DNA of 64,000 nt from Agarophyton chilense (Eukaryota > Rhodophyta > Florideophyceae > Gracilariales > Gracilariaceae): positions 2,046,001 to 2,110,000 of the forward strand of contig JARGXX010000080.1 in assembly GCA_030374765.1 (NCBI GenBank). The letters run 5' to 3'. This document shows, in pieces, positions 7,631 through 54,884 of this stretch. The notes beneath the pieces are model-generated. The model was not told the origin of the DNA, made no database searches, and worked only from the letters and a program-made list of their open reading frames with translations. Every line of letters starts with the position of its first letter. Positions within the stretch are counted from its first letter, which is position 1. The position numbers and the translations under genes were made by a program.

Positions 7631-7865
7631 TCTAATTCTGCAAGAACACCAACAACTCACATTTTTCAGGAGCCTGCTCTTTTCTAACCAATGCATTGAA
7701 AAGGAGAAATGACCCAAATCGACCAGCTACTGCGCCAGAACCACTCTGACCACCGCTTCTTGTACAACAAAATCCTACTGTGTGACCTCCCACACCTTCG
7801 CCATGTATCCAAATACATTCGTTCTTTTGAATTAAAATCAAAATGATCTGCAACACAGAGTAGAT

Positions 7866-8075: not shown

Positions 8076-8216
8076 CGTTATGGATCGTAACTTCTTATGA
8101 GGATTGAAGGGTACGGCTCCTAGCTCCTAAGCACTTTGAGAACCAACTTGAATTGGAACAGAGTGCTTTGTTTAAAAAGTCTTTCATTGCTCTCCACCAT
8201 TGAAAAGTATATGTCA

Positions 8217-10570: not shown

Positions 10571-10689
10571 CAACGAAAATGAGCACCTGTCGGCTACGTA
10601 GCCGTTCGAAAGGGCTCACGGGTTTGATTGATCTCTCGCCAACGGTAGCGACTCGAGCCGTGCAACAAGAAAATGTGCCAAAAGATGAT

Positions 10690-11100: not shown

Positions 11101-11229
11101 CGAAAATGTTCGGCTGTGAGTTGTGGCGACGGCGGGCCGATCTGAACGTTCTTCGGGATACCTACATTCTTGTGGCGGCTATTGTGGGAACAAGCCCACC
11201 TGACGTAGACGCGTTGCGGGATTGAGAAG

Positions 11230-11625
11230 AGGGCGTGTAGACGTAATGGACGCCAGTGGGGGACGAAGGTTCCCGTGATGCGGCCTAAAAACGAAAACGT
11301 AGAGAACAGGAGGGTGATTCGGGGGTCTCGGAAATCCAAGCCGCTTGTTATGGCTTCTATCCAGAACGAAGCTATGCCTACAACGCGCAGCGGTGCAGGG
11401 CAGGCGAAGAATGTAGGAACCCCACCACGGAAGCCGAATCCTAACAAACAGGTGATTCTGTTGGTGACCACGCCGAATGGTGAGAAGAAGGTCGTTGGGA
11501 AGGCATTTGTGAGGGATGCGGTTGATGCGACGGGGGATTCAGGAAGATTTGGTGAGAGCGTTGCATCGTCACAAACTGGTTGGGAAGGCGAAGGAGGAAC
11601 TCGTGGCCGTATTCGAGGCAAACCC
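11230..11625 (+). repeat. Truncated inverted copy of the 8217-10570 element
   Basis: The translated frame matches the first segment of the minus-strand element: KVPVMRPKNENVENR against KVHVIWRKNANAENR, then TTRSGAGQAKNVGTPPRKP against TTRSGARQTRKVGTPPRKP, and KAFVRDAVDATGD against KAFVRDGVDATG. Nucleotide similarity also extends into the region after the shared frame (CACAAACTGGT, GGAACTCGTGG) and ends near 11625. It runs head to head with the other copy, giving inverted arms of roughly 400 bp with a spacer of about 660 bp. Confidence 0.8.
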
Positions 11626-25194: not shown

Positions 25195-27270
25195 ATTTTT
25201 CACCAGCTCTCCCGTTACGTCCAATACGACGCGTATAAGCCTCAATTATCTTAAGTAGCTCAAAGTTAATCACGTGCTTCACGCCTTTCATTTCAATGCC
25301 CCTTGCAACCACATCGGTAGCAATAAGGACTCCAAATCCATCCGAACGGAAACCCTCAAAAGTTTTTTCTCTTTGCTCTTGAGATTTACCAGAATTCATA
25401 CGGACTGATCGTACAGCTGAATTAGTCTCTACGTAACGACAGATCATTTTGCATCCACTTCTTGTATTCGAGAACACCAGAATCGGAGCTTCCAAGGTTT
25501 CCAAAAGTTCAATAAAACGGCCTCGTCGCCGAGCTTACGAACTAAAGAATTCTATTCGTTTTTCAGAATTATCAGCTGCTTTTCCGGTCTCTCCCATCGT
25601 AATTACGACGGGATCCTTGAAATAGCTCCTCGTCATACGGTCAACAGCCGGCGACATTGTGGCACTGTACATGAAAGTTTGGCGGCCCTCCTCCGGTATG
25701 CATTCAAGAACTTGAGCTAGTTGTGGTTCAGAACCCATGTCAATCATTCTGTCTACTTCGTCAAGAATCAGGTAGTTGCAATTCTTAAGTGCAGTCATTT
25801 GCCGATCAAGTACGTCTACCATTCGTCCAGGTGTGCAGACAACAACATCACAAACAGCTTGAAGCGACATTGCCTGTACGTCCTTTTCTTTACAGCCAAT
25901 ACTTGCAACAACCCTGTATCTCATCGGATAAGTACACTTCTTTGCTTCAGTTACTATCTGTAGAGCATGTTCACGGGTTGGGGCTACTACTAAGGCGTAT
26001 AGACCGTTGCTTGCAATGGTTGCACTCATGGTCGGCATACTCATCAAGTGAACTATCATTGGCAACACAAATGCAGCAGTCTTTCAGGAACCTGTCTCGG
26101 CTAAACCAATTCAATCACGCTTTTCTAGCCCAATTGGAATCGATTCCATCTGTATCAGAATCGGTTGCTCCTATCTCACAACCCTCTTCATCAAGTCAAG
26201 TATCTTGGGCGGTAATCCAATTTCATCCCAATCTAGAACGGGATTGGGTGCTGGAGCATTAGACGAGCGAATAGTCATCAAGAAATCTTCCCGAAATGTG
26301 CGCCATTCACGGTCACTCTTCTGATCTCTAGGTTTCTTGGACCAATGTCGTGCATCACGCAGGTGGGAGCGAACAGATCCTTTGAAACCAAAAATATCAA
26401 ACATACCTCCTAAATGACCTCTCCCAAACTGCGGGACCTGTATACCCAATCGTTGAATGTCATCATCGGCTGGTGTGTCGTCAGACTCATACCAACCAAA
26501 GCGAAACATTTTGCAGGAACCGTTGGCTCAGTCTTACGGAAAGCACACGTCGCTATTGCATCCGTGTGCAAATGAGGGACACTCGGGGAAAGTTGTCGCA
26601 GGCGATGGAGCACCCTTGATGTAGAGTCGTCAAAGACAAAGAGGATTGATATTCGAAGCACATCGAAGAGTTGAGCCCTCTCGGAGAAAAGAGAATAATG
26701 GGTGCAGGGTGGGCATCTGCTGGAAAAGGAATTATATCATGGCATTGGTCAAAGCAGAGAAGAAGAGCAAACGACCCGTTTTCATTTTCTCGCACGGTTC
26801 ACTGAAAGCTCTCGGATTCTTACAGCTTCAGAAACAACCATGCCCCCAAGTGCCTGGAAAACCTAATCACTTTCGTTTTCTGTGTTGCCACTTAAACTAA
26901 GATGCCTGAGGATAGGTCGGTTCATCGTAGCCGATTCTGGAAAATCTCTCAAAGCTTGGGGTGTGGTTTGCGTCCTTCATTTTTATCAATTTATTATGTT
27001 CTTGTGAATCGGAAGGAAAGTATTTCATGAAAAGAAGGACAGAACAGGCGTGCACTCGCAATAAGGATTCTGATACGCTTAAAGGGGCGTCGGAAGCAAT
27101 GACCAATGTGAAAATGATAGGCACCGAGAAAATGTAAGGGTAATGGATAACGTTTCATTTGCCGACAAATTTAGCACTGCAGATTCAAAATTTCTCAATG
27201 TAGGTCGAAGAGGTGGTATTGGAATCCTGGAATGATTCAAGAGAGGTCCTAGGCTTACGAGTACCTTGTT

Positions 27271-28867: not shown

Positions 28868-29105
28868 ATCTTCATTTGTTTTTCGTTTTCCATATAGCGC
28901 GCTTTAATGAACAAGAGATTACGACTGCAGCTTCCCATTGAAATGTTAATTGCCAACTAGTTCCCGTTTTTTAAATGAAGTTTTACTTAGAGCACTGAAA
29001 ACTGTGCACCCTTGAGCACTGAAACTGCAATGAAAATATAAATTAAAGAAGGTCTACGCCAAATATCTAATGATTCTTTAATTGCTTTGAGTTTTGCCTG
29101 GGCAC
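28868..29105 (+). repeat. Dispersed repeat, copy 1 (with 40025-40260)
   Basis: ATCTTCATTTG, CTTCYCATTGAA/CTTCTTATTGAA, AGTTCCC, ATAAATGAAGTT-like blocks, TGCAATGAAAATATAAATTAAA and TTTAATTGCTTTGAGTTTTGCCTGGG correspond in the same order to the sequence at 40025-40260. It has no ORF and is AT-rich. In the second copy it lies directly upstream of the element frame starting near 40255, so it may be the 5' untranslated or promoter part of that element family. Here the sequence downstream differs. Confidence 0.7.
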
Positions 29106-35863: not shown

Positions 35864-37480
35864 TCACCCTTCAAAGTTTATCTTCCAGATTCTTACCAAT
35901 GTAATTGGTATATGACGTGCAAGACACGGACATGTCACCAAAACCAGCCGAAGCGCCATTATCCGTAGCATACAAGAACCAGTTTTAATGAAGGTTGATA
36001 CAGAAATAGTAACGCCATCCCGGAGAGTAAACTTTGAAATCTCTGCTGATCTGATTCGCTGCAGCTGGGTTGTGTTTGTGACACTCCACATTTTCAGTAA
36101 AACTAGGCTTACCCACGTCTGCAACCGAACTATCACCGCTAAGCCAGTTCTAATCAAACCAACCTAGTCTACAGCTCGCGTCTTTTAGACCATCGACTTT
36201 AAAGTCACCAATTTGTATATCTAGGTTTCCATCACTGTCAAACACCAAACTATTCAAACAACGGTAATGGGTACATACCGGAAATTTAGTGAGGACTGGG
36301 TCGCCAACTTTGTTCAAACATTTGCAGTTAACTTCTTTGTTGACAAGCAAAATCTGACCGTCTTCCAGCCTCTATATACGTAAATCAGTATCCGCAGGAT
36401 TGAATGCCAAGCCAAGAATTGAAAGGCGCTTTCCATGAGAAGGCAATGGGCACAGATCGATTGCCTTCATGTCATGACCGACGGAAAATTCGTATACAGG
36501 GCTATCGATGGCTGAATGATAGTACCTCTGGTCCGGACCGTACATGATTCCATTAATCAATCTGAGCTCAATAGGATTGGAACTGTCACGCACGCAAGAC
36601 TCAAGAAACAGAATAGGAGGCAACGCAGAGCTTGAATACTGGATCGCCAACCCATTGGACGTACCAACCGTACTGGGAGCAGTAATGTTTACAACATCCG
36701 TTTTAGAACACGCAGGCATGGAGACGAAAACCTCATCGCCGGTAGATAGGTTGACAAGTATTTCAATTTGTTTATTGCCAAAGCCAATTTTCACGCCATT
36801 GAAAAGGCCGACGCCGTATTTTGCAGCAGTACCCCTGCCACCGAGCTGTGACGAACGAAGATCAACAACAGTTAGAACGGGAAGAATATGGGACATGTTG
36901 CATTTGAGCTTTTGTCCTTGGGCAGGATGTTGTAATTTAACGTCAGAAGGTGATGGGCGTGAGTAGAGAACTTGTACGGTTTGAAAATTGAAAACCGGAT
37001 AGGATTTGATACGAAGATGAGGTGGGCCTTTCGTCGGTTCATCAGAATCTAAAAATAATAGATCATCAAAAAGTAGACGAACTGCTCCAATATGAGTGAT
37101 GAAAACCTTAGTTTTCTTTCCACCAGTGACGAGGAAGTTGCTTCGCGTTTGAAACAGCTTCGATTTTTGGGAGTCCTGAAACTCTCCGGCAGACGCATAA
37201 TAAATATTTGAGACATTTGAAGCGAACAAAGGACGCTCACCTTGAGAAAGCTCACCAGGAAGCGAGGTTGAAGCGGAGGAAGACATTTCATCATAATAAC
37301 AATAAACAACATACTCAAGGGGGTCTTCGGAAATCACTGCGGCATAATCGGTGTTAGAATCATGGTGATTATTGGTGACAGTAAATCCAACAGTGGTCTT
37401 CCCGACTGGAAACTCGGCAATGGGTTTTGAACCAGCGACTACCAGTGGGTTTAGGTTATACTTGGTATTTTCAAAGCATT
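35864..37480 (-). pseudogene. Glucose/sorbosone dehydrogenase-like beta-propeller protein, broken
   Basis: The frame is open from about 37480 to 36372, with an N-terminal beta-rich segment (PVGKTTVGFTVTNN, IPT/Ig-like texture). It then continues through a TAG at 36372-36374 into LEDGQILLVNKEV, NSLVFDSDGNLDIQIGDF, KVYSPGWRYYFCI and LYATDNGASAGFGD. GLAFNPADTD, the DSDGNL...GD block and the ...YSPG...LYATDNG block are the landmarks of the soluble quinoprotein glucose/sorbosone dehydrogenase fold, a six-bladed propeller that binds PQQ and oxidises sugars outside the cytoplasm. At least three further stops lie between 36160 and 35880. The usual Pro-Gly-Leu-Arg-Asn block has become PGWRYY. I see no signal peptide because the 5' end is not defined. 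At more than 500 codons it is the longest single-frame host-like gene here. Confidence 0.65.
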
Positions 37481-38929
37481 TGCATCGTGAGGATTAAGGA
37501 TTGCCAGCCATTGAGAAAGACAAGGTACAGAATCTGTTAAAGATTGATATAAGCAGCTTTATGACATACGCAGACCTCTCATATTAAAAGATGAATAAGA
37601 AACGGAGATCACGAAGAATTTTCAGTGCTCAGAGATAGTCCGATATGATGCCGGTTTTGACCACCAGAAGCAAATGGATTGAGACCAGAGTGATAGGCTT
37701 TCGTGCGGAAGGATATCGGAGGTTATGAAGGCTGTGCAACTAAAAACAGAGGAGCGTGACCGCATCTGAGATGCATATATGGCATCCGGTCACCGAGCAA
37801 AGAAAACTTCACGACTTTCGTCGACTCGGCCTTTGGAAGGTTCATCTATTCCCTCAACGACTGGCTATCGGATCTAGGCAGCTCTACTGTATCGCTGGTG
37901 CTATCATGCTCTGAGCTGCTAATACACCTTACTTGAGATTTGTCAGACCTCATTGCATCCAAGATGCCTTTCAGCCGTCAGATCCCAGTGCGAAACTCGG
38001 CCAGGGCCGTGAACGCAGACTGCACGAGGCCGAGAGACGATAGCACATGCATGAATGAAAATTACACCTGGGTAAGAGCACCAAGTGGCACTTTTACGGC
38101 AAATTATTGGGTGTCAATCAAAGCGGTTGGCGCCAGTTGAGCCCATAATCGAAACGATGACGACATAATTTCTACGGTTCGTCTCAACCCGAGCAAGCTA
38201 AGTCTTTTTCAAACCACTGGACCGAAGCGCACAGAGAGCTCAATTTTTCGGATTCTTGACTACAATAGAACGCAATGCTTTCAGTAGAATCCCGAGCACG
38301 TACCAGCCCAAAACAAAAATCAGCTTACTTGCCTGCCTGTTCCCGGTTTAAAACTAGCAGGCGCCGTCACACTCGACTGATTACTAACGTCCTAACCAAA
38401 GAACAGCCCAATAGAAGAAAGACTTATGGCTTGTACACCTTCTACGGCAAAACAGAAAACACAACCAGATCAAACACACCCACTGAAATGACAGTGAAGA
38501 ATCGGACTGCACGAGAGGTGAACTTCATTACGTCCTTAGATATTCTCTGGTCAGAATTGCCAATGTCCGAAAATCCCTGAGAGAGCTTTTGATAGTTCAG
38601 ATTAGCAAAGTACTGTCGCAAAAGATGGTCTTTAAGGATGCTTCTCCACATCAGCGCAAGGCGTTGGGTTATCCAGTTGAACACAGATATAACAATAGGA
38701 CGGATTACAACTGCTCTCTCGTATAGGAGAAGCAGATTTGCAATTTCGATGCATCTCTAGCCTTCAGACTGTTCGATAACAACCTCTGAATCATGCTGAG
38801 CATGACGGCATAGAATGTGGCTGCGTAGACTAATACCACGGTTGCTGCAGTCGACTAGATGTATGTTCCGCCGCAGAGAGTATTCAAAGAGTTCTATGCC
38901 TAGAGAACGTTTTCGTCGCAGAATGAACT
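37481..38929. other. No supported gene
   Basis: A 101-codon plus frame at 38275-38580, rich in Arg, Thr and Asn, and short frames on both strands are present. None shows a recognisable domain or repeat relation within the window. Confidence 0.35.
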
Positions 38930-39674
38930 CTGCAAATCCAGAGCTTTAGAAACAAAGAAGAAGAACCTCTCCAAGTCTTCATCTCCGTTTGAGACTTCCG
39001 GAGATGACAGCTCTGGCAGCAGCAGCCCCACTGAGAGTAGTGACAGCACCGATAGTACCAGTAGCGAAAGCTACGAGAAACGTGCAACGAGACACAAATA
39101 TGGTGTGGTTAGAGATCTTTCGCAAAAATGGGATGGAATAAGTCCGGCAGCTGCTGCTGAATTCACACGGAAAACCCAGGGCATTGCGAAAATGAGCAAA
39201 CAAGGAACCACTTCGGTTGCTTCAAAGAAAGATGGAAATTATAGGGAGGTGGAGAACCCTTCAAAGTCTGAATCAAAAACGAAGTCATAGGGTAAATCCG
39301 GAGCAGAACTGAGTGCTGAAAAGAGAGACACATCAATCCAGAATGATACAACAGGTAAAGGGGTTTCAGAAAAGCCAGAGTCTCAAACTCAAAAACAACG
39401 ACGAAGCGATGCTGACGAGAACGGGGAACGAGAGAACCGCGCACCATTCAAACGTGTCAGAGTGGAAAAAGTTGTTTTCAAAGACGATCACCCGATGGAC
39501 AAACCATTTTTTTCAAAGACAGACACATATAGGACCAGGGCACATCGGTATTTGGCTGTTACAAAGAGGAAAGGGTTTCCCAAAGAAAATACAAAGAAGA
39601 AGCGACTCAGTCATAATCGAGAGAGACTCAGTATTGAAGATACCTCCTGGAAGTTCTCAGATGACTCACACTAA
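38930..39674 (+). pseudogene. Ser/Lys-rich broken ORF, unrecognised
   Basis: Plus-strand segments start with a long Ser/Asp/Thr run (read from about 38960 to 39060) followed by RATRHKYGVVRDLSQKWDG and a Lys/Ser-rich stretch (39105-39290). After frame changes the sequence continues to 39674 with DDHPMDKPFFSKTDTYRTR and KKKRLSHNRERLS. The texture is of a nuclear or gag-like low-complexity protein. No enzyme motif is visible. It lies upstream of the dispersed repeat at 40025. Confidence 0.35.
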
Positions 39675-40024
39675 TAAAATGGTCTAATGAAGAAGGGCTG
39701 AAAGGCCGCTTGAATGGTTCAGATTTCGCACACCATAAGCGACGCGACGGGCGATATGGAAAGAGACACATCTTCAGTGTCTGTTCGCGACCTAATGCAG
39801 CATAAAAGATGAGTGGACACGCCTGTTGGGAATCTCCGGGGGCGGATCAGAGGCGGAGTTAACGCACATGCGATCGAACGAGAAGGCATGACCCAGTGGT
39901 TTAAGGCCCCATGGCCAAATTAGCTCGTGGCCAGGGGAAAGTCGAGACACGGGTTTGCGTTTCGTGGATGTCACAGATTTGAATGATCAGATGTGCACGC
40001 TACGATGGTAATCTTATTTACGTA

Positions 40025-40260
40025 TCTTCATTTGCTTCTCGTTACAAGTACACAGGGCTCTAATGAAGACGAAATTAGAAATACCACTTCTTATTGAATT
40101 ATCAAGTTCCCAACGGTCTGAATTTCATAAATGAAGTTCGAAGTAGAGTATTCAAAACAGTGCAGCCTCGCACAACGAAATTGCAACGAAAATGCAAATT
40201 AAAAGTGGCACCTGCTGAAAATATACTGATTTTTTAATTACTTCGACTTTTGTCTGGGTA
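40025..40260 (+). repeat. Dispersed repeat, copy 2 (with 28868-29105)
   Basis: Matches 28868-29105 in the same orientation through a series of blocks, ending with TTTTTAATTACTTCGACTTTTGTCTGGG. It is immediately followed by the element frame at 40255, so this copy keeps its likely original downstream neighbour. Confidence 0.7.
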
Positions 40261-40626
40261 TGGAAGGTGTTGATACCGGATGAGAAAGAAATGGAATACT
40301 TTTATCTATTCAAAACTACAGATACCGTACCGAACAGTTTGGCAGATATGAAGAGCAACTTTTTCTATTGCTGGGACGTGAACATCATGAAACGTTATAG
40401 TGGCGAAACGGCGATTCTACCACTGAAACCGTCCTCCGCGCCGTCTGCAACTCCAGACAAGAAGCCCTCCGCTAAGAAAGTGAAGGAAAAGGAGCAAGAA
40501 GGGTGTTCGTCGTATGCGACGGAAGGTACGGTGAGCCACGAGGTGATGGGGAACAAAAGAAAGCCAGGAGGTCTGGTAACTTGTATTTGGACCGTTCATG
40601 ACATTCAAACCTTATCTATTAAGTAA
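40255..40626 (+). repeat. Copy of the FKTTDTVP element ORF
   Basis: The frame starting near GATGAGAAAGAAATGG gives YLFKTTDTVPNSLADM, FFYCWDVNIMKRYSGETA and LPLKPSSAPSATP, matching FKTTDTVPKSLGYM, FYYWDVNMTKRCGGEAA and LPLKPFATPFAPP in the minus-strand element at 10137-9990. DNA similarity begins just before, at GGAGGTGTTGAT, and is lost after about 40520. The family therefore has at least two copies of this part and an inverted partial copy of the preceding part. Confidence 0.75.
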
Positions 40627-40639
40627 GAGAATGGGACAG

Positions 40640-42500
40640 AGAGAGAAGCGAGGAGGCGACGGTTTAGTGGTTCCCATGGTGCTAACTTCCATGAAAAAGG
40701 AGAAGGCAATGAGGCACAGGGGGATGGTTCAGGAATGAATGAGGTACGTTGAGGCACTTCTGTCTCAAAGAAACACGTCTTTGAAGAAGCAAAGGACGAA
40801 ATACTTCCAGGTGGCGGTGAGACTGGGAGATGGAAGAAGGGCCAAGTTTGTTTTTCAAGGGCCTTACCAAGCGTGAGCGAGAATGAATGTATAGGGATGG
40901 AGCCTAAAGGAAAAGGAGTCGTTGTTGGAAGGAAGGAAGTAAGGATTCGCAGAGTCTCGGAACGCAGATCAATGCACAGGTCTTTTTATTCGCAGACTCC
41001 AGATCATGCAGTGAAGAGTGTCGAACAAGGGGGCACTGAGGGGTCAAACGACCGAGTGGGCGCCGGGAGACCTCTGAGAAAGCAGAGTGTGAGGGAGTGG
41101 GGGAAGGGAGGGGAGGTTAAAAAACGACAGAGACTCTGGAAAAGTGATGGGGATGAGGAGAAATAGGATGAGGATGCAATGAGCCTGGAGAAGAAAGGCG
41201 AACCTAAGGAGATGGATTATGGAAAAATGAAGTTAATGTGGCGGAATCAGCTGTTGACCGAGCTTGGAGACATGAAGGGGACCTGAAAAAGGCAAGGGGT
41301 GACAACACAACTTTTCAACTAAGTTTGACACTCGCACGGACGTAGATGAAGAGACTGGAGGGCGATTTTATGAAAAAGGACGTGCTGCTGACGTCATTGA
41401 AAGAGAGTCTCCGTGGTTGACCAGGTCAAGTGGGTGGCGAAGAAGGGAAGGGGGGACCGAAGGCCTACACTTCGTCTTTGCAGGGGGGGAATGATGAGGT
41501 GTTGTTGCATGTGGTGCGGATGCAGTTGGAGAATTCGATATGGAGAAATGTTGCAGAGATGGTGATGAAAACGCAGTGTGAAGAAGAATTGAGGAGTGAT
41601 CGGTGTTTGAGGAAGCGGATGTAACAGGCTCTCAGTCATGCTGTGGGGGTGCGGAAAAGGAATGGAAGGGATAGGTGATTTTTGGGTCCGGGGCATACTC
41701 TACTTGCTAGGAAACAGTCTAACAATGATGATGAAGAACTGAATGTGTTGTATGAAAAGCAGAAGATGGAGGGTCGGGAGATGTTGTTGCCAAAAGACGC
41801 GAATGTGGAGCCCGACATATCTGCGTGGAGGTTGGACAAACTGGAGAACAAATGTTTTTAACGGTACGATGTGACCTCGGCAAAGTATGGGAATGAACCT
41901 GATGACTTGTACTTCAAGAAAGGATTGAGTGTAAAGATGTTGACAGAGTTTATGGGTTCCTATATGGAGCAACCGTGAAAGGAAGGGGAAACACAGTATG
42001 TGGATGGAAGTGTGATGCACCTGGCCCGATTAGATGCCTGGATTGCATATGTGGTAGAGGTGTTGGATGAGGATGTGGGTAGAAGAGGGAAGCGACAGAT
42101 GCTGTTTTCGAAACTGTATGCGAAGCATCTGCCGGTTGCTGTGGAGGATATCTTACAGACAGCAAGAAGGAAGGTGGAGTAGAAGTATGGGGAGGAGCTG
42201 GTAAACCATGGTGGGAAGGATGGAGACCCGACTGAAGTGTTTGGAAATGAGGAACTTGAAGGAACCGTTGCGTTTTAAATGCCATCGAACCAACTGGTCT
42301 ATCTGAGTGATCGGTACGAGGTGTTTCTGGAGGATATGACGACTTTTCCCGTGTGTGTATTAGATTTCTACGTAGGACGTTGTATGCCTGAAGAACGCGA
42401 GTTTAGGGAGTTGCTAGCGAATGAGAAAGAAATTTAGGAGGCGAAATAGGAAGGGGAGGAGAGGGAGTGAGAGGAGGTGGAAGGCGGAGGTGAAGGAGAT
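40640..42500 (+). pseudogene. Broken ORF of an unidentified element, Glu/Lys-rich
   Basis: In one frame from about 41430 to 42440 the sequence reads as protein through several stops: HVVRMQLENSIWRNVAEM, ARKQSNNDDEELNVLYEKQ, DISAWRLDKLENKCF, FKKGLSVKMLTEFMGSYM, ARLDAWIAYVVEVLDED and LYAKHLPVAVEDIL. The start around 40640-41390 is less clear. The regular helical texture argues for real coding ancestry on this strand despite long Pro/Ser/His-rich frames on the other strand. I recognise no family. It converges with the minus-strand ORF at 42551-43619. Confidence 0.4.
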
Positions 42501-42550
42501 GTTGTGGATGAGTGATAACTTTCTTATCAGAAGATGGGCGGCATTTGCTT

Positions 42551-43619
42551 AGGGTTGATTATTTTGTAGAGAAATAAGCTCTCGCTCGAGGGTTGCGGTA
42601 AAATCTGTTGATATAGAAACGATGTTGATGCCAGGGAAGGGGCGGTAAGAAAGGGCGTGCTGGATAGTTCTGACGAACCACATGGACGGAACTGAGGATG
42701 GCGGAGGAGATAATGAGACCGAACCAGGGTGCGACATAGGAGCCAGATCGTCGGAATCTGTTTCCGGTGGGGAGAATGGTGTGGTCCTGTTCATATTCTG
42801 TTTCCCAACAGAGGATGATGCCTATCAGGGTTTCATCCACCTGATAGAGGGGAGTTGTGAGTTTGAAGAAGCGGACGATTGTATATTCGGCTTTGTGAAG
42901 ATCTTCATCTTTTTGGGAATGCGAAGCAGGGCGACGAGCCTGCAGACCCAAACAGTGAAGAAGTTGCAGTTAGCTGGTGAAGTACCGGACACGAGAATGT
43001 GGGAGAACTTTTGGAGTTTTAAAGGACCGAAGGCGGAGGCGGCAAATAGGCGCTGTGTAATGGGGACTGGTGATTCTCTGAAGCGGATGCAGTTGAGTGT
43101 TGGGTCAAAGCCTTGCAAGGCGGGGGTGAACCCACTGTGGATGAAGGCGGAGTTGACGAGGGAGAGAGAGGCTAAGGAAGGAGAGAGACAGGGCAGAAGA
43201 AGAGAGTCCGAGATCTTCGGGGCACAGGTCGTCAAAGGGTGAAATTGCGTCGCGTGAGATTGGGGTGATGAAAGAAAGGGTGGAAGAGGTGAAGAAGTTG
43301 GAAAGAAGGGCATTTGAACAGTTTGCGGTTGCAGGGAGGTACTAATTTGCAGTGATGATGTCGCGGAAGAGGACGGTGGTTCCCTCGCGGACCATGGAAA
43401 GCAGTCGACCACGAAGAAAGGCGGAGTTTGAGGTATAGGAAATGTGGTGGGGAATGGCGGTGGAGTTTCGGGAGCCTTCTGTAAGTTGGATTGCGTCGAC
43501 TGTTTCGCTGTGAGTGCTTGAAGATCTTCGGGATATGCGTCGACAGTGGTTTTTGAAGAGGAGGTGTGCGTGTTTGTAGATGCCGGCGTTAGTGAATTGA
43601 AGATCTCCGTATAGATCAA
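42551..43619 (-). pseudogene. Broken ORF of an unidentified element, convergent partner
   Basis: The open minus frame starts at 43619 with a Thr/Ser/Pro-rich segment, then reads FGPLKLQKFSHILVSGTSP. After a frame change near 42900 it continues as YTIVRFFKLTTPLYQVDETL, CWETEYEQDHTILPTGNRF, SYVAPWFGLIISSAILSS and HQHRFYINRFYRNP before a stop. The second part is protein-like with regular aromatic and Pro spacing but matches no family I know. It begins just inside the direct repeat at 43721-44402. Confidence 0.4.
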
Positions 43620-43720
43620 TGTCAGTAACTATGTGGTTCAGAAGGTAGAATTCGAGTGTTCCAAAGTGAATAGCTTGGAAAGGGGCCAGGACGGAGAAGG
43701 AGAGAGACTTGAAGTGCTTG

Positions 43721-44402
43721 TCTAACTCGTGTCATTTTGTGATTTCGATCTAGTTCTGTAGGAATGTGTCATTGAGGAAGATGAAGGGTGAACTGGTGGT
43801 ACCGCTTGGACCGTTCCCAGAGAGTGGAGCGTTGTTCGCGTCGTGCGAAGCGCGACGCAAAGTGAACCGCGTGGGAGCGCGACGCGAAGTGAGCCGCAAC
43901 GATCGGAGAACGTGATGCAGAGCGGTTCATCACAAATGAAATAGAAAGATCTTATTTTACGTGCAACGGGGACCCTTTCGGGTCTCCGTTGCAGGATCGC
44001 AGTATTACGCTATGACCATTAGGGTCATTAGAGGGCATTAAAGAGAATGTGCTGGTCATTTGAACGGTTCATAATAACTACAATACCTGCGCGAAATGAA
44101 TGATCATGCGCTAGATAGCATTCAGTATCACATTCATTCTCGGTAGAATTTATGGTCTAGGATGAATGAGCATCGAGAGATATCTCACAAGCTTTCTTCC
44201 ATTTTTCCTAGTGTACCGGTGATAGTATGGACGTTTGTTAGTGTTTTACACTTTCTTAAAAATTCATTTGGGCTAGTATTTTTGCGCTAGATACTCTGGC
44301 TTCGAAATTCTGCGGTTTTTTGGATGCTTTCTATAGACACTTGAGCACACCCAACCTAGAAATCTAGCACTCTATACTATCTTTCCGAAAACACAAGCGT
44401 GG
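43721..44402. repeat. 682-bp direct repeat, left copy
   Basis: Aligns with 47579-48261 in the same orientation from TCTAAC to ACGTGG/GCGTGG with almost equal length. Shared blocks include TGGTGGTACCG/AGGTGGTACCG, GCAACGATCGGA, TTTCACGTGCAAC-like and GGGCTAGTATTTTTGCG, and AAATCTAGCAC. It holds a GC-rich core (43840-43920) with two tandem GCGCGACGC-AAGTGA units and an internal palindrome of GCGTCG and CGACGC. No ORF. It could be a long terminal repeat, a shared 5' region of two related elements, or a segmental duplication. Confidence 0.8.
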
Positions 44403-44939
44403 TCTAGAGTGCGTGCGAAGTAGCATAAATCAGCGCTTTGAAAAAAAGTGGAGAACAGTTCCTTTTAGAGCTCCTAATAGTATGAAAGCTCAGAGAGGGC
44501 GTTCAGAGAGAGCACCAGGTTGTAAGTGAATTAAGTTTACCAGAGAGAGTGCGACCTGCAAGGAAACAAAAGGAAGGACTAATACAGGAGATAGACGGGC
44601 GAGCGCGCGCGGTGGATGGGCTCGAGCGTGCAGTAGATTGGTATGTGTGTGCGGCTTGCGGGCGAGCGCACGTATCTGCCGCTACAGGTGCAGTGGCAGT
44701 TGCGGTGACTGCACCAGCTGTAAATGCACGCACGACTACTGCTATAGTAGATTGGTACCAGATAACTACGGAAATGTAATAGCAAGCCAACTCGAGCGGC
44801 AGTGGCGACGACGCACGCTGAAAGGAAGCGGATGGCAGCCAAAGCATGAGTCGCCATGGCACCAGACTTACATGCAAGGGGATTACAATGACTCTCCATG
44901 GGCTTGCAAGAATGGGAGCAGTGGTGTCAGCGAAGGTTA

Positions 44940-46817
44940 GGTCAAGTTGAACAAGTGTAAACAGTGGATGCTGCAGAGAAGGCTGCAGCAAAACCGCAAT
45001 GATGGCGGTTTGACGGTTTTTGAAGTGACTTTGGAGAAAGTGATCGTAGTTAGGAGGCTGTCTAACTTTAAGCGTTCGATGTTTTCCAGACTGACGAGTT
45101 TAAAGATAAAGAAATGTCAGTGGTAAAGGGTTTCATTAGAGAAGATAGAGTAAGGGGTGAGAAGTGGGGATATATTAAGAAGGGGGTATGTTTCGAAGAA
45201 GGAGTGGCACGCGGAGAGGTAGTTTGTGCAGAGGAGAGATGCTTCCTGGTCTCTGAGAGTTCTTGCTACACGCAGTACGCAAGGTTGTTCGGCGTCGTTG
45301 GCATCCTTGAGAAGAGGGTCGTGTGCGGATCTGGTGAGACCGGTGTTGGAAACGGTTCGAGGGGATAGGGAAATGAGGTTGAGGTTGAGGTCGGAGCGAG
45401 GTGTTGGGCATCTGTGGCAAGGCTTGGATGGTTTTGTGCAGTGTAGGATGACGAGGATGTCTTTTGCTTTAGAGATGTCTGCAGCATTGTTTGAGATGAC
45501 TGGGTGGCACTGTCGGATGACCGGGTACTCATCACTGAAAGGGAAACCCTTTAGAGCGACTGCAGCGAGGGGTTCGAGGATGGTTTGTAGATATTCTTGG
45601 ATGAGTTCTATTCGGATGGTGCGGCTGATGGCTTAAGAAAGAGGGTGGCCTTCGATGGAGTCCTCTTCGGATGGGGAGGAAGGGGCTCCAATTGAGGGGG
45701 GGCAGTAGCCGAGGAGTGTGTAGTTCCAGGGGAGGCAATGGCGGCGAAAGGAGTCTAACAAGTTGAGGAGGGTGATTTGAAGGGGGTAGGAGGTGATAAA
45801 GAAGCTTTAGAGGGAGGTGGACGAATTGTTTGAGTAGAGATGGATGAAGCCGATGAAAGATTACATGCCAGAGATGTCGGCGTTTTGCCAAATAACATCT
45901 GGGTCTTGAGACTAGAAGATGTGGTGTTTGAGGTCCGGGTCGACACATATGCCGAGTTTTGAAGCTATGAGATGAGCGTGAGCGGGAGAACCATCTGAAG
46001 AACACCCTCTGACGGGGTGAAAGAAGGCGTTAGCGCGATTGACGTAGCGAAGTGGCTGGAGAAGGACATCTACGGGGTTTTTGAAGTAGAGAGTTGCAGT
46101 GGTGTTTGAGGGTTTGTGACAAAGGGTTGTAAATTTGAAGCCGATGGAGCGGAGAGTGTCCTCGAATAGTTCGGAATAACGTTGAAGGCAGTAGGAGACG
46201 GAGGTTACCTGTTCGATGAGTATTTGGGAGTAGTCGCGGACCTTGAGGAGGGTGATGAGTTCGTTGGATTTGCGTTTGCCGAGCTTGGTGGCGATGAATA
46301 AGATGTTGAAGATGGTGGGGTGGAGCTTCACGGGTGGCCGAGGGCTGGGAGAAGGGGATCGAAGAGAAGCGTGGAAATTTTAGGCGGTGTCTGCGGAGCG
46401 TATGGCAAGAGCGAGCTGTCTGGAATGGTAGACTTCCTCTTCTACTAGCGGAAGGTTGTTGGAAAGGCGGTTGGAGATGCAGAGGGAGCTGGTGTCTGCG
46501 GTCTGGAGGCGTGAGTGCTTCGTGCGCGGCAGGAATTGAGTGCCATCCTTCGGGGTGGTGGAGAGGAAGAGCTTGCGAGTGATGCGGTAGCCACACGGGC
46601 GCTGGTGTTGGGCAAGGGAGGCGTGGCCTTTTGTCTGAAAGGTGCACCATGGAAAGTGAAAAGGCTGCATGGTGCGAAGGGTGCCTGCTTGAAATCTCGG
46701 AATGTAAATCGGGGATGTGGAAAAGGCGTAGGACGAGGTGAGAGGGGGAGAATATATACAGGCTGGCGGTGAGGAAGATGCAGGGCGAGGACGGTAGGGA
46801 GAGTTTGAACCTATCAC
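44940..46817 (-). pseudogene. KDZ/Plavaka-like DDE transposase relic
   Basis: In one frame from 46817 to about 44940, with at least five stops (for example at 46380, 45912 and 45633), the translation reads as a Plavaka-type transposase. It has a Pro/Ser-rich N-terminus, TLLKVRDYSQILIEQVTSV, ITLLNLLDSFRRHCLPWN followed by LLGYCPP, and IELIQEYLQTILEPL. Then come FSDEYPVIRQCHP, VISNNAADISKAKDIL and the zinc-ribbon-like PCHRCPTPRSDLN. This order (SYxPxxLxLLN, LLGYIP, PL, H/R-P...ADxPE, C-P-CxxC) is the signature of KDZ-superfamily elements best known in fungi. The acidic residue expected in the ADxPE block is retained as Asp, but the following residues are changed. The segment lies between the two 682-bp direct repeats. 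A more distant tnp2-like origin is the alternative. Confidence 0.65.
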
Positions 46818-47578
46818 GCGTACTCACCAAAGTCTAATGATGCGCCAGATACGCGCCAGATACGCCCACAAGTCATGCAGCACGACAGACACGGCGAGTA
46901 TGTGGCTTACAAAGTGGGTTGGATTGAAAATATTCGAGCTTGTATATTTTTTGAGCGGCGGCGTGTCCTTTTGTTGATTGTGAGTAAGGTTATGGTGACT
47001 CTTTGGCGACCATACAAGCGGTACTGGGATCTTGGGATCCTGTGACATGATGTCGTCAGGACTGTGTGAACCGACCCCCTTTTGGAGGTGCGTGAGAAGC
47101 TGTTTTGAGTACGTGTCCGCGTGCATTTCACAAATGTTGACTTGTTTTATGTTTATGTGCGAACGGGGGGAGCGCGAGTAGAGGGTTACTTGATGGGGTG
47201 TGGTGTGGGAGGTGACGGGTTGACTAGCTTGCGATTGGCATGTACGTGGTCATTGTTGATCTGGGGCTTCGAAAATTTGTGGTCATGCGCGAGCTGACGA
47301 AGCGCAAAAGGGACGATGGGTGATGCCGCATGGCGTGGAGGGTGAGCGGGTGGATGGGTTGCGCAAGATTGGTCAAGATTGGACGAGAGGTGAGATAAGT
47401 GGTGGCTACAGAGGTGAGTGTCGTGTTGATGAGGTTTGGGTTTGTTTTGTGATGGAGATCTGACTTTTTTCTGTTTATTGATGCGAATGCAGAAAGTGGG
47501 GGCAAGACAAGGAGCACATGTTTGGCATAAGTAAGTTTGTTTCTAGGGAATGTGTTTGCATTAAGCCAGGAATTGGGT

Positions 47579-48261
47579 TCTAACTTCTGTGATTTTGTGA
47601 TGTCTATCTAGTTATGTAGGAATTTGTGCTTGACGAAGATGAAGGGTGGACAGGTGGTACCGATTGGATGGTTCTCGGAGAATGGAGGGTTATTCGCGTC
47701 GCGCGAAGTACTACGCAAAGTGAACCGCGCGGCCGCGCGATGTAAAGTGAAGCGCAACGATCGGAAGACGCGACGTAAAGCGGGTCACCACATATGAAAT
47801 GGGAAGATCTCATTTCACGTGCAACAGGGACCCGTTTTGGCTCTTCGTTGCAGGATTGCAGTGTTATGCACAGGGCATAAGGGTCATCAAAGAGCATTAA
47901 AGAGAATGTGCAGGGCATTTGAAGGGTTCATACTAGCTACAATACCTGCGCAAAATGTATTATCATGAGCTAGATATCATTCAGTATTACTTTCATTTTC
48001 GGTCGACTTCTTAGTCTAGGATGAATGAGCATCGAAATACATCTCTCAAGTTCTCTTTCATACTTCGTAGTGTGTCGGGGTTAGTATGGAAGTTTGATAG
48101 TTTTCTACATTCTCCCCAGAATTCATTTGGGCTAGTATTTTTGCGATAGAAATTCTGACATCAGAATTGTGTGTTTTTTTGAATGCTAATCATAGACTAT
48201 CTAGCCCACCCAAACTATAAATCTAGCACCCCATAATAGCTTTCCAAAAACACAGACGTGG
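47579..48261. repeat. 682-bp direct repeat, right copy
   Basis: Same-orientation copy of 43721-44402, diverged by roughly a fifth of positions by eye in the part I compared. Its right end is followed within 80 bp by the decayed start of the Copia element, so it may have replaced the Copia 5' LTR. Confidence 0.8.
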
Positions 48262-48373
48262 CCTGCGAAGAACTGATCACTTCTCCTTCCAATAGGGGTC
48301 CCCATCAGACATACACCATTAGCAAGCCTACTATGCCCAATCGATACCACGAGGAGATGGAGTTAAGCTTTAG

Positions 48374-49450
48374 TTGACCAAAGGCAGAGGCTTTAGTTTT
48401 TCCTCAAGTCTCCGGAATAATAATCCTTACAGAGGCTCTGGATTAAAAGAATATCATTGGAAATCAAATCCAAAACTGAACAAAATCGTGCAACAACCGT
48501 TCCAAATTAACAGAAATTGTATAAACGCAGAACTCTTTGATATTATAATATATTAATAACTGCTCATTCGAAAACCAGAAAGAAAAAGGAATTGCCAATC
48601 GCCATTTTCAAGTATTGCTAGAAGAATTGAACACGCAAAAAATCGACACGGAGATGATGGGGGAAAATACCTTTAAAATTGAGAAACGGAAAGGAGAAAA
48701 CAGGTCTTCATGGAATTCAAATTGATGAAATCTTTGAAGAAGAAAAACTATTAGAAGGCAGCCATACTAACAAAAGAAACGCCACTGAAAATGAAAAGGC
48801 TTCGATAGTTATCAGTCTTTCAGTAGACGACAATTAAATGGTTTATGGCGAATCAGCTAGGACGAGAACAGAAACATGGAACGCATTGTCAGAAATTTTT
48901 GAAAACGAAGTAATGGAACAAAAAATGGACTTACAATAACAATTTTTGTCGTGGAAACTTAAAAAAGAATAGCAAAGGAACATATTGAAAAACTGAACCG
49001 TTTAAAAAACCAAACTACATCAAATGTGTGTTCAAAACTCAAAAGAAGAATAAATTACGTGTCTAATACAAATTCTGCCAAAAACATACGAAAATATTGC
49101 AGTGACAATGGAAAACATGGCCGATATTTTAACAATCGAAGGAGTTCATGCCAGAATTTTGCGAGAAAAGTGTAAAAAAAGTTCTACATTTTAAAAAGAT
49201 CAAAACGGAAATTTCCTTCAAGGTAACCATATAAAGAAAAGTTCAAACCTTCCATTCAGCTGTCACCACTCTAAGAAAGAAGATCATAGAATTGGACACT
49301 GTCGTGCGGTGAGGGATGAGAAAAATTGTGTCTACAAAAAAAGGAAACACACTAAATATTCAACAAACTAATCAAAGTTTATAGGTCAAAGGGCTGCAAT
49401 TTTTTTAATGGCTGAAGCGGAAGACTCAAAATTGTAAGGAACATGGTACC
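48374..49450 (+). pseudogene. Copia gag, decayed
   Basis: Broken plus-strand frames read as a Ty1/Copia Gag: NNNPYRGSGLKEYHWKSN near the start, a later VYGESARTRTETWNALSEIF, and LPKTYENIAVTMENMADIL typical of the UBN2 Gag domain. A degenerate zinc knuckle FSCHHSKKEDHRIGHC follows near 49255, where the first Cys positions are altered. Gag packages the element RNA into particles. Many stops interrupt it. The 5' LTR expected upstream is not visible; TCGATACCACGAGG at about 48339 could be a decayed primer-binding site. Confidence 0.7.
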
Positions 49451-49469
49451 TGGATTCAGAGAAAATTAA

Positions 49470-51460
49470 CCCTTTCAAAATTAGACTCGGGGATCGAACC
49501 AAAGTCACTTCAAGAAAAAAAATTCAAATGCACAAAACTGAAAATAAAGAAACTAAAGTTTAAAATCTGTGATGTACTGCATGTACCCAGAAATGCTGCT
49601 TATACTTTATCTATTGGACAAATTGATGAACAATATCATACTGTTCACTTTCAGAAAGCGTTATGTAGAATAAGTTCAAAACAAAACAAGTAAACAATTG
49701 AAAACGTTCAACAAAATCATCAAGGTACTGCTTCAAAGCCTACCAAATGCAGGAAAGTATTTCTTTCTTTTATGCTGCCACACAAGAAAATTATGAAGTT
49801 TGGCAAACGAAACTAGGACACAACGGAGAACCACTTTTAAGACAAATGGTTTCGAAACAAACTGCAAATGAAATACCTACAAAACTAAAACCAAAGAAGA
49901 AAAACTCCTGCAAGGAATGTGTTATGAGAAAAAAGGATTCAAAAACATTTAAACCTCTTAAAGACTTTCAAGTGAAATCAACGCTGAAAGTTATACACAC
50001 AGATCTCTTGGATCCTATGAGAACGCTGTCAAAGGGAGGAAATTTTTATTTTATCACTTTTACAGATGATTACACTCGAAAATCTTTCGTTTATTTTATG
50101 AAAACAAAAGTCGAAACAGCGCAAAAAACGAAAGGATTTATTGAAATGGTTAGGAATCGAACAGGACTTTTGAACAAAAGCATTTGCAGTGACAGAGGTG
50201 GATATTATGTCTCTACAAAATCAGAACACGTTTCTAAATCGAAAAAACTTGTTCATGAGCCAACAGCTGCTCCCCTGCAGCAACAAAATGGAATTTCTGA
50301 GTGAATAAGCGTAGCACTATGTAAAGTAGCTCGTTGTTTTCTTTTTTAAAACAATTTTTCTAAAAGTTTTGGGATGAGGCAGTGCAGACGGCAAAAATAT
50401 TCAAAAAGATTATTCCAACAAAAACTTTAAAAGATATGAGTCCTGAAGAAAAAATTCCGTTAAGAAATCCCACCCTTCCAAATTTGAAGGTTTTTGGATA
50501 TAAGGCCTGTTTCGAAGGAAAAGCGAATAAAATGGCATGCTAAATCAAGACAATGCACTTTTACCCGATATAACGGAAAACACCATAGGTGCATGCACAA
50601 TAGTAAAGAAAGGCTTACAGTAAGTTCAAATTCACAGTTTCTGGAGCTTCAAAAAGAAAATGTTTTTCAAGTGAATGCGGAAGAAAACGAAGTTGAAGAA
50701 CCACTTGAAGAAAACAGTTCATCCACAGAAAGCTTTCAGAGACCAGAAAATCAGAGCGAGGATAATTTGGAAACAAACCAAATCGTCCCAAGAAGAACCA
50801 CAAGAGTCACAAAGACACCAGCAAAGCTTAATTATGAGCATGCCGAAGAAGCTGAAAATACTGCTACAGGAGCAGTTATGATGTTAGCAAATAAACAGCA
50901 TCCAAAATCATTTAAAGAAGCGACAACGACATTTGAAAGCATTATGGGACAGTTGCCATGAAAAAAGGGAACTCTTTCACAATAAAAAACATGGACTCTG
51001 GTACCGAAAGAAGCTGAAATGCATATTCATACACCAAAGTCGGGTTTATAGAATTAGTTAAAAAAACAATACACCAAGAAAGAATTTTCAAAGAGCGACA
51101 GATGTGCAAGGAAGTTCAACAAGAATATAGAAAGAATTATTCTAAAAAATATATACCTCAGTTATGAGAATGGCTTCTTTTCGAATTTTGCTTGCATTTT
51201 TTATGCAGCCAAAGAAGCAAATATGTCAAATGGACGTCAAAACAGCATTTCTAAATGGAGTATCAGAAGAATAACTATAAATGGAGCAACAAGAAAAAAG
51301 CCATGGTAAATCGATGCACATTGATAATAAGCCTTTTTATGTTCAAGAGATTGGGCAGAACAATTATATTTAAATCAAATACTGCCATATGAAAAACATG
51401 ATGGCCCATATCTTTATAAATGCTTTCAGAAATTACGCACGAACAATTTGTAATAATTTT
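49470..51460 (+). pseudogene. Copia pol (integrase and partial reverse transcriptase), decayed
   Basis: The pre-integrase region WQTKLGHNGEPLL and the KECVMRKK Cys motif start the open frame 49747-50304. The integrase core keeps its catalytic pattern: Asp in VIHTDLLDP, Asp in ICSDRGGYY and Glu in QQQNGISE. After a stop, the linker at 50494-50961 is Glu/Ser-rich. Reverse transcriptase remains as TLVPKEAEMH and MDVKTAFLNG near 51230 with stops and frame changes. The catalytic YVDD region and the RNase H domain are absent, because similarity ends before the polypurine tract. The element is therefore a deletion derivative that cannot transpose on its own. Confidence 0.88.
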
Positions 51461-51475
51461 GACTGTAGCAGTTCT

Positions 51476-51490
51476 AAAGGCGAGGGAGGG
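51476..51490 (+). other. Polypurine tract of the Copia element
   Basis: AAAGGCGAGGGAGGG is purine-only apart from one C and directly precedes the TG that starts the LTR, the usual place where plus-strand DNA synthesis is primed. Confidence 0.75.
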
Positions 51491-51930
51491 TGTTTTCAAA
51501 ACCTGTAGACAGTTTCAGAATGCCACTGGAAACCGGTTTAGGTAAAAGACGTATATAAGAGCCCCTACAAGCTTCCGTAGAACTTTTTGTAAAAAATTTA
51601 AGAACTATCTTACAACAAAATGATATTGGTGTAGAACAATTTAGAAGAACTTTGAAGTTACATTAAAAAATAGAAAAACAGACTGGTTCAAGTAGAAGGA
51701 ACTCAAGTCAGCACAACAGAATATTATCCGCGTTCTAGTGTACTCTGAACGATCACACACTCCTCTGCCAGTCTCTGGTAGTCTTTCTCACTTGTCGCGG
51801 TGCTATATTGTGTGATATTTTGAAGTCAGGTGGCTTATATTTTAGAGCACTGGTGGGCTTGCTCCAAGTGGCGGACCACTGGGTATTATTTATATGTTAT
51901 CTGGACATTCAACCTGGTACACAATATACA
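51491..51930 (+). repeat. 440-bp Copia LTR (TG...CA)
   Basis: Starts TGTTTTCAAAACC immediately after the polypurine tract and ends ATATACA immediately before a tRNA-iMet-like primer-binding site. The first 270 bp align with the solo fragment at 2485-2760. Having both a 3'-LTR context on the left and a 5'-LTR context on the right is unusual for a single LTR. Confidence 0.75.
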
Positions 51931-51942
51931 TGGTACCAGAGG
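51931..51942 (+). other. Primer-binding-site-like sequence (initiator Met tRNA)
   Basis: TGGTACCAGAGG is one base away from the complement of the 3' end of eukaryotic initiator tRNA-Met (TGGTAGCAGAGG), which primes many LTR retrotransposons. It touches the last base of the LTR. No gag sequence follows it. Confidence 0.6.
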
Positions 51943-52099
51943 TGAGCGCCGCACCCATTTCACGGAGACCACTTGGGCATCATGACTCTTCTTTTCCTCG
52001 CTTAGCATTCCTTACCCGGAGATCCGGACGAGCTTTAATAAAGAATCAGTCAACAAAGATTCCTCGAGCCATCTCGTATCCTACGCTCTATCTACGTCA

Positions 52100-54884
52100 A
52101 AGAGTTTTACTGTCCAATCTCGCTGGTGAATAGTGGCCTTGCAACCCACTACCAGCTCGCTGGTGTTTTAGGTGTACCTCTGACTTACCATTCGCTGCAA
52201 GCACTAATTCAGCAGTCTGAACTCTGTGGCAGGTTTCGCTTTTACCGCGAGTGGGGAAACTACGCACTCTACCCTTGTGACCTTCAAGTTTTGTATAATA
52301 CGAAGTGTATTTCAGATACGCATCTGGAAGTAGTGGGGTACACCGAACTGGAGGTTAGCTTTGACGAACCTTAGAAAAGGAGTGGTTTGCCACGGTTCAG
52401 ATGGGCATGTGTGATTATTCAAAATGGATCTTTAAAGTGTTCCCGGATCCTTTCCCCGGGGCTTAACGTAGAAAATTTCCCTGGTTAGAGCTTCCAAAAT
52501 GGATCTCCTTCGAGGCAAGTAGTTGGTCAAAGTCCCCTCCTGAATCAGAGTTCTCAAGCCGCTTATCATGCTGCCACTCTGGATTCTCTGTTGTTCCGTC
52601 GTCGATGCTGGACCACATTGCGTCATACCCAACGGCCAAGGCTTACCAATCTTGTGGTACGCACGAGATTAGGTCGGCCTGAATATTTTCCACGCACTCT
52701 TTATAGACCAGTTTGGAGTTACATTGCGCTAAACGAAGCGTCCACCGCATAAGGCCGCATGGTGGATAAGAAACAGTCAACCACCATCTCAGCTACGAAT
52801 GACCCGTGCACAAGGTAAAGCTCACACCCATTAGGTAGGGACGAAGAGTAGACAGTGCCTACATGACGTCGAGCCACTCCTTCTTTCACACGGAGTAGTT
52901 TTGTTCATGAACCTTAAGCGAGCATGATAAATAACTATTTGGGTTCCGTTTTGCGTCTGGGCTGGCCTCGGAGAGAGCACGAACAGCTTAGTAATCGCTT
53001 AATTTCATGTGTACCGAATATGGGATCCAGGTCTTTGGGAGGGAAGAGATTCGTGTCGCAGTGACAGCCATGTTCAAGATGTTAAATTCATTCTTGCGAT
53101 TTGATGTGATGGCGTCTCGTTTGGCGTCGGTCTTTTGCAGAGGAATGCGTTTAGAGATGCTGGGATGCCTGGAACGTTCTGGGTAAACCATCTGAAGACG
53201 TCAAAAAACTCCAGGAAGGAGCGTAGATCCATTTGAGTGCGTGGTTCAGTAGCCCTGGTGATCCACAAAGCATGAGGTTCTTTTATAATCAACCGCCTTG
53301 GTCGGAATATGTGTGACAGAAATTGCCACTATCCGTTTAAAAGACAGAATTCCTCAGATTCAGTGTTTTTTGGGTCTAGCATTACTTTCATCACATCCCG
53401 AACATGGGTGAGGTTGTCTTTAAAGACATTGGAGCAAAAGACGATGTTTATTAAGTAGAATAGATAACTTCGACACTTCTAGTGGGTCTAAAGATTGTTG
53501 AAGGCATATCGCATTGAAGCTTGTGTGGTTTTCAAACCAAAGTGCATCCGCTTGAACGGTAGGAGACTGTGTGACATAGAAAAGCAGTCTTTTGTCGATC
53601 TTCTTTCTTTACAGGGACTTGCAAAAGCTTCCTGTTACAGTCTGAGGAGTTGACCAGGATTCTGTTTTCGAGCGCATATAGGGGCACATGTATACGAGAA
53701 CTGAGGTATGATTATAGTATTTTGTCCGCGTTGAGCCTGCGATAGTCCCCATACAACCGTCGGGTTCCATCGGCTATGAATGCTAGTAAAACTGAAAACG
53801 CGAAGGGTGACTGAGAGTGTCTAGTCACTGTGGTACGGAATATCTTTTTCACTTGGAACTGTTCCTCTTCTCAAAGCTTTTAGTCGTGCCCAACACGAGT
53901 GTTGGGTAATCAAACAGGTTAGCAGGGTTAGGTCCATTCTGTGTTCTGTAGCACTTATTTCGCTTACTGAGCCGTCTCATATTATTTCAAGATCCCGTAA
54001 ATTCTTGCAGACACGATTTCTGGATGATTTCAGTACTTTTCTATTATAGAGCTCTTCTATGGCCTTCAAGTGGTCAAACTTATCGTTGGTTGTGACTGCA
54101 CGCTCTCCTGTGCGCGTACCGGTACTATATTTTGAAATACTGCACCATTTTTTCTTAAAGGCAGAACTCGATACCTTCTTTGACTGAACACAGTCTGCCT
54201 CGAAGTCGATGGCTTTTTTCGAGGAGACAAGTTTGGCGATTTTTTTTGTTGTCATATTTGTAGGAAACATCTTCATAAGATTCAGCCTGACAGATCTAAT
54301 TTTTTCTAAGTCAGATACTATGAAATGGTGCCAAGTTTGGAAATCAGGATCTGCAAGGGAATATATGGAGTAGTCTGTACAGATTCATTTGTGAAAGCGA
54401 GCTAGTACTTTTCGAAAAATGAGAGGAGGGGCTGTAAGACCCGGAAACAGTGTTGATAGGAATCGTTTTGTCTCATGTCATGGGCTCCTGGCGGGACAAT
54501 GACGTCGGAAACAGCACAGAGAATCATATACTTGGGCGAGGCAAGCGATAGTTCTTTAATTAGAAGGAGGGGTACTTGCTTTTGCGAATCCCGCTACTCC
54601 GGGCGACAGGCGATCGAAACTGAGGATCAGTTGTCCAGTTCCACCTGCGTGAGACCGGCTAAAAATGCGTCGAAAAATGCATCGCAGTAATCAAATCCCA
54701 GTATAACTGAAGCGGCTAAGGACTGGCGGTCAATAAAGTCAAGCTGCACCACAAAGATGCCCAGAAGTATACCAAAGTCGACAGTCCTTACCGTTTTCAA
54801 CGAAGGGTTGCGTTCTTCAGCGACTTCAGTTATCCTTCCGGGGCAGAAACGGTTCCTTCGTGGCAGGCGCAAAAGTATTTCCAA
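52100..54884 (-). pseudogene. Ty3/Gypsy pol (protease, RT, RNase H), decayed
   Basis: Reading leftwards: protease-like SLAASVILGFDYCD at 54884-54630, then reverse transcriptase from about 53830 with DYRRLNADKI, VPVKKEDRQKTAFLCH and MHFGLK. YLINIVFCS stands where the catalytic YLDD block belongs, so both Asp are lost. The RT-RNase H linker LRSFLEFFDVFRWF is at 53210, and an RNase H-type segment LRWWLT...LMRWTLRLA with VYKECVENIQAD lies at 52800-52680. Stops and frame changes are frequent. No integrase core is recognisable before similarity ends near 52100, and no LTR pair was found. Confidence 0.8.

Follow-up and report, generated by a model that had tools for sequence, protein, structure and literature searches.

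Two same-strand repeats around transposase sequence in Agarophyton chilense are separately derived copies of one end of a Plavaka transposon with short inverted ends

Plavaka transposons were formerly grouped with the KDZ elements (Kyakuja, Dileera and Zisupton), which are fungal DNA transposons, and are placed with the CACTA/EnSpm-like elements, not with KDZ, in PMC12730594. The parts of that study on which we draw describe PlavakaA, with TGT..ACA ends and 2-bp target duplications, and PlavakaB, with CATCA..TGATG ends, duplications of 2-3 bp and, in some families, a TET/JBP gene, and they report C(2)C and H(3-4)H motifs between the second D and the last E of the Plavaka transposase. The family described here resembles the Plavaka elements of Agaricomycotina treated in those parts of PMC12730594 (PlavakaA and PlavakaB) in its PF18759 transposase, its inverted ends and its 2-bp target duplications. 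Unlike the KDZ elements, for which the same source gives duplications of 7 bp (Kyakuja) and 8 bp (Zisupton), it duplicates 2 bp, and unlike PlavakaA and PlavakaB it ends in CGTC..GACG. By transposase and duplication it is a Plavaka family, its termini fit neither class in the parts of PMC12730594 considered, and the CGTC..GACG ends might conceivably define a third Plavaka terminus class.

The window, the whole stretch of 64,000 nucleotides that was analysed, contains two same-strand repeats of about 682 bp, R1 (43721-44402) and R2 (47579-48261), which start 3858-3859 bp apart and are 80.5% identical over 686 aligned columns, a similarity far above chance. The first-pass annotation had recognised this pair correctly and had read it as long direct terminal repeats around a decayed KDZ-type transposase, possibly a new element type. 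Two long same-strand repeats are indeed reminiscent of LTR retrotransposons, and the 682-bp copies do bracket part of a transposase. Unlike LTRs, however, R1 and R2 are not each other's closest relatives (R1 is nearer to a copy at locus L002, see below), they enclose DDE transposase sequence, and the ends of the window element are inverted.

Whole-genome searches with R1 and R2 gave 116 and 114 first-look candidates, respectively, 40 of which were scored in each case; the union of both searches comprises 47 distinct scored copies, on which the pairing count rests. Copies paired at a conserved spacing, the check proposed with the direct-repeat reading, were sought among these 47, and R1/R2 proved to be the sole same-strand pair within 20 kb; the remaining 45 copies have no such partner, which speaks against direct terminal repeats as an architecture. 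The copies are thus unpaired, as the first-pass annotation had anticipated should its proposal fail, but most of them lie within the same transposon family, with segment T or C (see below) adjoining, and not beside unrelated sequence. These comparisons show the 682-bp repeat to be the ~680-bp right-end region of a multicopy Plavaka family, a region that lies upstream of the transposase gene. The element's own terminus lies at position 44399 in R1 and 48258 in R2, and the same terminal sequence, up to a few letter changes, occurs in 26 places besides these two (the copy on C4, L035, and two copies on C71 end before the terminus and were not counted); in L044 the right terminus is without its last G. 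Beyond the terminus, the 26 places show 22 distinct flanks, one of which is common to L025, L026, L028, L031 and L033, and the L002 right-end flank is that of R1. An exact search of 44 loci for the R2 terminus with its flank matched no locus but L009, the window itself. Two right-end copies of equal extent (C71:377067-377668 and C71:409939-410540) lie on the same strand 32.9 kb apart and may represent a segmental duplication or an assembly duplicate.

Members of the family end in inverted repeats of roughly 26-45 bp (CGTCTGTGTTYTCGGAAAGCTAG...) and duplicate 2 bp at the target site. A motif scan found the reverse complement of the right terminus as a left end at window position 6097 and in L036 and L040, and a damaged version of the terminus forms the left end of L039. 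Behind each of these four left ends lies a conserved region of more than 400 bp, that of the window being 84.8% identical to L040, 86.1% to L039 and 83.2% to L036 (40 of 102 genome candidates were scored; the other left ends listed were not among the flanks read). The terminal 23-mer, with up to three mismatches, has 488 matches in the genome (245 forward, 243 reverse), and the reversed 23-mer, used as a control at the same threshold, has none. Pairing was performed on 74 exact termini, taken from 81 exact ones listed among the 488, with left and right termini told apart by one diagnostic letter. Among these 74, 18 neighbour pairs lie within 45 kb, of which 16 are inward-facing left/right pairs spanning 7.8-38.3 kb and the other two are outward gaps between adjacent termini on C70. 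Both flanks were read for 13 elements (C120, i.e. L039, was excluded on account of its damaged left terminus), and the 2 bp match in nine of them (C41, C12, C1, C113, C109, C121, C88, C2 and the window) and not at C98, C16, C68 and C3, compared with 18 matches in 156 when ends were paired across different elements; the match extends to 3 bp in none of the nine. Inverted ends elsewhere were what the first-pass annotation itself had named as evidence against its proposal, and such ends are present. An inverted-repeat search of 36000-54000 had yielded no element ends among 25 of 28 pairs listed because the left end, at 6097, lies beyond the searched range.

Comparison with uninterrupted copies shows that the window carries an old Plavaka copy, 6097-48258, that was later split by a 28.6-kb insertion. 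The element then measures 42.2 kb, or ~13.5 kb once the insertion is subtracted, and is bordered by TG at either end (the TG after R2 equals that at 6095-6096 before the left end). Its parts are as follows:

6097-6600, plus strand: left end, CGTCTGTGTTCTCGGAAA... terminal inverted repeat and conserved subterminal region (motif scan, left-end similarity)
6601-11612, no strand assigned: left interior, in the same order as in other copies (sequence comparison)
11613-40256, no strand assigned: insertion of other sequence, 28.6 kb (comparison with uninterrupted copies)
40257-41461, no strand assigned: segment A of the interior, which in other copies directly adjoins the left interior (comparison)
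41454-43720, minus strand: segment B, transposase residues 720-981 and further interior (tblastn)
43721-44399, plus strand: R1, inner right-end region with terminal inverted repeat (terminus scan, tree)
44400-45008, no strand assigned: M, beyond the R1 terminus (genome search)
45009-47363, minus strand: segment C, carrying the Plavaka domain and encoding transposase residues 1-605 (46823-45009) (tblastn, profile match)
47364-47578, no strand assigned: segment T, which in many copies separates the transposase from the right-end region (comparison)
47579-48258, plus strand: R2, the outer right-end region, whose terminal inverted repeat forms the right boundary of the element (terminus scan, flanks)

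The left interior is matched by C1:84851-88745 (window 6601-10497) and by C16:153769-160513, the latter being 1.75 kb longer and including an internal inverted repeat. In C16 and C3, the stretch matching the window up to 11606 or 11612 runs directly into segment A (window start 40257), so that the insertion is absent by coordinates, and L044 displays the uninterrupted site; 11613-40256 is therefore an insertion. It is preceded by CGTAT and followed by GGTAT, an imperfect 5-bp duplication. Same-strand repeats of 233 nt (28868-29100 and 40024-40256, ~69% identical) end exactly at its right junction and suggest that at least part of the interval is an old LTR-type insertion. Other observations in this region include a minus-strand fragment of a tnp2-family transposase (13700-14383, PF02992, Transposase_21, 49.3 bits), within DNA (11966-14600) that is itself repeated, e.g. 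at C95:53134-55768 (89%), and a minus-strand open frame inside the insertion (25535-26083) with a DEAD-box helicase match of 106.8 bits, possibly a captured or displaced host gene. Two inverted repeats of ~83% lie within the element, 10161-10515/11266-11618 and 9945-10171/40257-40483, and the insertion now separates the arms of the second. Since other copies match on both strands, such internal inverted repeats appear to be a family feature. Just right of the element end, a plus-strand fragment (49702-50304) matches an integrase core (37.2 bits) and, below the cut-off, gag-pre-integrase, and is presumably Copia-like.

The transposase of the family is best represented by L029:5319-8264, an unbroken 981-aa frame that matches PF18759, the Plavaka domain, with 73.7 bits (cut-off 26.3); the corresponding window fragment (45117-45632, minus strand) scores 25.7 bits, just below that cut-off. 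In tblastn alignments, residues 1-605 of the L029 frame match window 46823-45009 (72%), residues 720-888 match 43731-43225 (79%) and residues 910-981 match 43157-42942 (78%), and the gene accordingly runs across R1. The window counterpart of residues 1-605 is broken by stops into frames 46380-46823, 45912-46379 and 45117-45632. A decayed Plavaka-type transposase is therefore present, as first annotated, and lies on the minus strand, although PMC12730594 separates Plavaka from KDZ and puts it with the CACTA/EnSpm-like elements. The profile scans of the window fragment and the L029 frame listed no KDZ family for those frames. Nor is the gene confined between the repeats: residues 1-605 lie in the interior as had been proposed, but the C-terminal part lies left of R1, outside the reported interval, so that the left flank of R1 is transposase coding sequence. 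With the transposase extending past R1, R1 nearer to L002 than to R2, the 47 scored copies yielding a single same-strand pair within 20 kb and true inverted ends in the family, we give practically no credence to a new element type in which long, LTR-like direct terminal repeats surround a Plavaka transposase. No match to PF12851 (TET/JBP) was found in the genome, and 14 control genomes likewise gave none, so that this control was silent.

Where R1 and the 609-bp M sit, ~114 transposase codons are replaced or missing, namely residues 606-719 in the window; the corresponding gap in L002 comprises residues 604-714. The interval between B and C is conserved at 353-381 bp in the nine standard copies displayed; in L027, which is outside these nine, it is longer (~1.16 kb). 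M gave no tblastn match to the 981-aa L029 frame at E 0.001, on which ground we rejected M as the continuation of a divergent transposase. A nested insertion between B and C with a left end of its own was likewise rejected, as 6097 is the only left end found in the window and M is not the missing coding stretch; a left-end motif with four mismatches at 13656 has no left-end region behind it.

Phylogenetic trees, restricted to one locus per place and to loci covering at least 85% of the segment, grouped R1 with the L002 copy (support 99/99) and window segment B with L002 (100/100), and placed R2 among old copies elsewhere with no supported neighbour; L002 is absent from the segment C tree under this restriction. 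In line with the trees, R1 is 86.7% identical to L002 versus 80.5% to R2. A genome search with M (four candidates, all scored) found it outside the window at one place only, within C80:1924666-1925414, i.e. L002, at 88%; the other two candidates match just the start of segment C. The order B-R1-M-C is common to the window and L002, which lie on opposite strands of one contig ~164 kb apart, the B-R1-M stretch being ~88% identical and segment B being fused directly to R1. R1 and R2 are separately derived copies of one end of a Plavaka element with short inverted ends, and the direct repeats would have no role in transposition.

The extent of the kinship with L002 bears on how this arrangement arose. 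On the right, window 45009-45150 is 85-89% identical to L002 and 62-83% to nine standard copies, whereas beyond 45150 it is 40-79% identical to L002 and 74-96% to the same nine. On the left, L002 is 83-93% identical to the window over 42225-43715, where it scored higher than four standard copies in eight of ten 150-bp bins, tied in one and scored lower in one; over 41454-42224 it is 84% identical and ranks 36th of 40. These identities delimit an L002-related mosaic tract of ~42.2-45.15 kb (~2.9 kb), with kinship outside it at or below the ordinary family level; its right breakpoint lies at ~45150 and its left, which is less sharp, near 42.2 kb. That the window and L002 are copies of one duplicated block would explain why B-R1-M is common to both at ~88%, but kinship drops within the element on either side, on the left to family level (that same 84%, rank 36) and on the right to ~70%, so that a segmental duplication is improbable.

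L002 itself combines a standard segment B (72% amino-acid identity to L029) with a transposase part that is divergent (42-51%; at the DNA level, ~68-74% identical to the remaining scored copies), and its transposase parts on the two sides of R1-M stand in order, which fits replacement within a gene and two abutting elements equally well. The window might hold two adjacent elements, the first (6097-44399) with an internal deletion that fuses B to the right end, followed by host sequence (M) and a second, left-truncated element (45009-48258; C, T and R2). The direct fusion of B to R1, the family terminus at the end of R1, followed by TG as before the left end, and the occurrence of M at only one other place would all agree with this arrangement; against it, the end of B and the start of C are ~114 codons apart in the transposase, a coincidence if the two were unrelated, L002 has the same B-R1-M-C order, and the kinship switches at ~45150, not at 44399 or 45009. 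We regard it as rather unlikely, with perhaps some chance of being right. The alternative offered in the first-pass annotation, related elements with a common end region or a duplicated block, comes close to the data. Very probably, an old, split Plavaka copy runs from 6097 to 48258 and ends at R2, and its R1-M tract came from an L002-like copy; the element is an ordinary old mosaic within a large transposon family, not a new element type, and neither the mosaic nor the two-element arrangement gives the direct repeats a role. R2 would then be the right end of the window element, and R1 that of a different copy, in which segment B was fused straight to the right end, plus M beyond it. The likeliest route by which the tract entered the window element would be ectopic gene conversion or recombination, with an L002-like copy as donor. 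In the donor, a family right end would have abutted a divergent Plavaka transposase, an arrangement that probably, if with less assurance, goes back to the insertion of a copy with an internal deletion into, or next to, a divergent Plavaka element. Because the R1 flank also starts with TG, the 2-bp duplication cannot assign R1 or R2 to the left end at 6097. It is highly doubtful that B-R1-M-C is a heritable double-right-end Plavaka variant, in which the transposase could join the left end to either of the two right ends, R1 being an alternative end, and which was copied to L002 before both decayed.

Old transposon families of many copies exchange end regions, and a transposase can therefore come to lie by chance between two same-strand copies of one end. 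This does away with a misleading lead, a DDE transposon with LTR-like ends. For a large Plavaka family whose termini are unlike both classes in PMC12730594, it also establishes the true ends, the target duplication and the likely full extent.

Several observations concern other members and genes of these elements. Open frames that look similar by eye lie opposite the transposase strand in segment B of the window (41979-42182, plus strand) and in L029 (8689-9195, minus strand), possibly a second, convergent gene of the element. A second Plavaka group comprises L017 and L019-L024; its termini are related (CGTCAGTGTTCTCGG-like, differing from the family motif by three to four mismatches), and its open transposase frames measure 416-1137 aa, one frame containing a stop. 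Five elements with exact family termini are of near-equal length (10,990-10,997 bp; C68:3638636-3649630, C71:753139-764128, C79:653829-664825, C80:1427209-1438202 and C105:1189916-1200909); none of them is among the 123 Plavaka-domain matches listed from 235 candidates, and they are probably a younger non-autonomous group. L032, L034, L035, L006 and L007 form a group of 97-99.9% identity with a common right end, and are without the transposase segment in the stretches examined. In L034, positions 7185-7931 match TPR with 25.2 bits; the frame resembles, by eye, what we take to be a splicing-factor PRP6-like gene, and is possibly host cargo.
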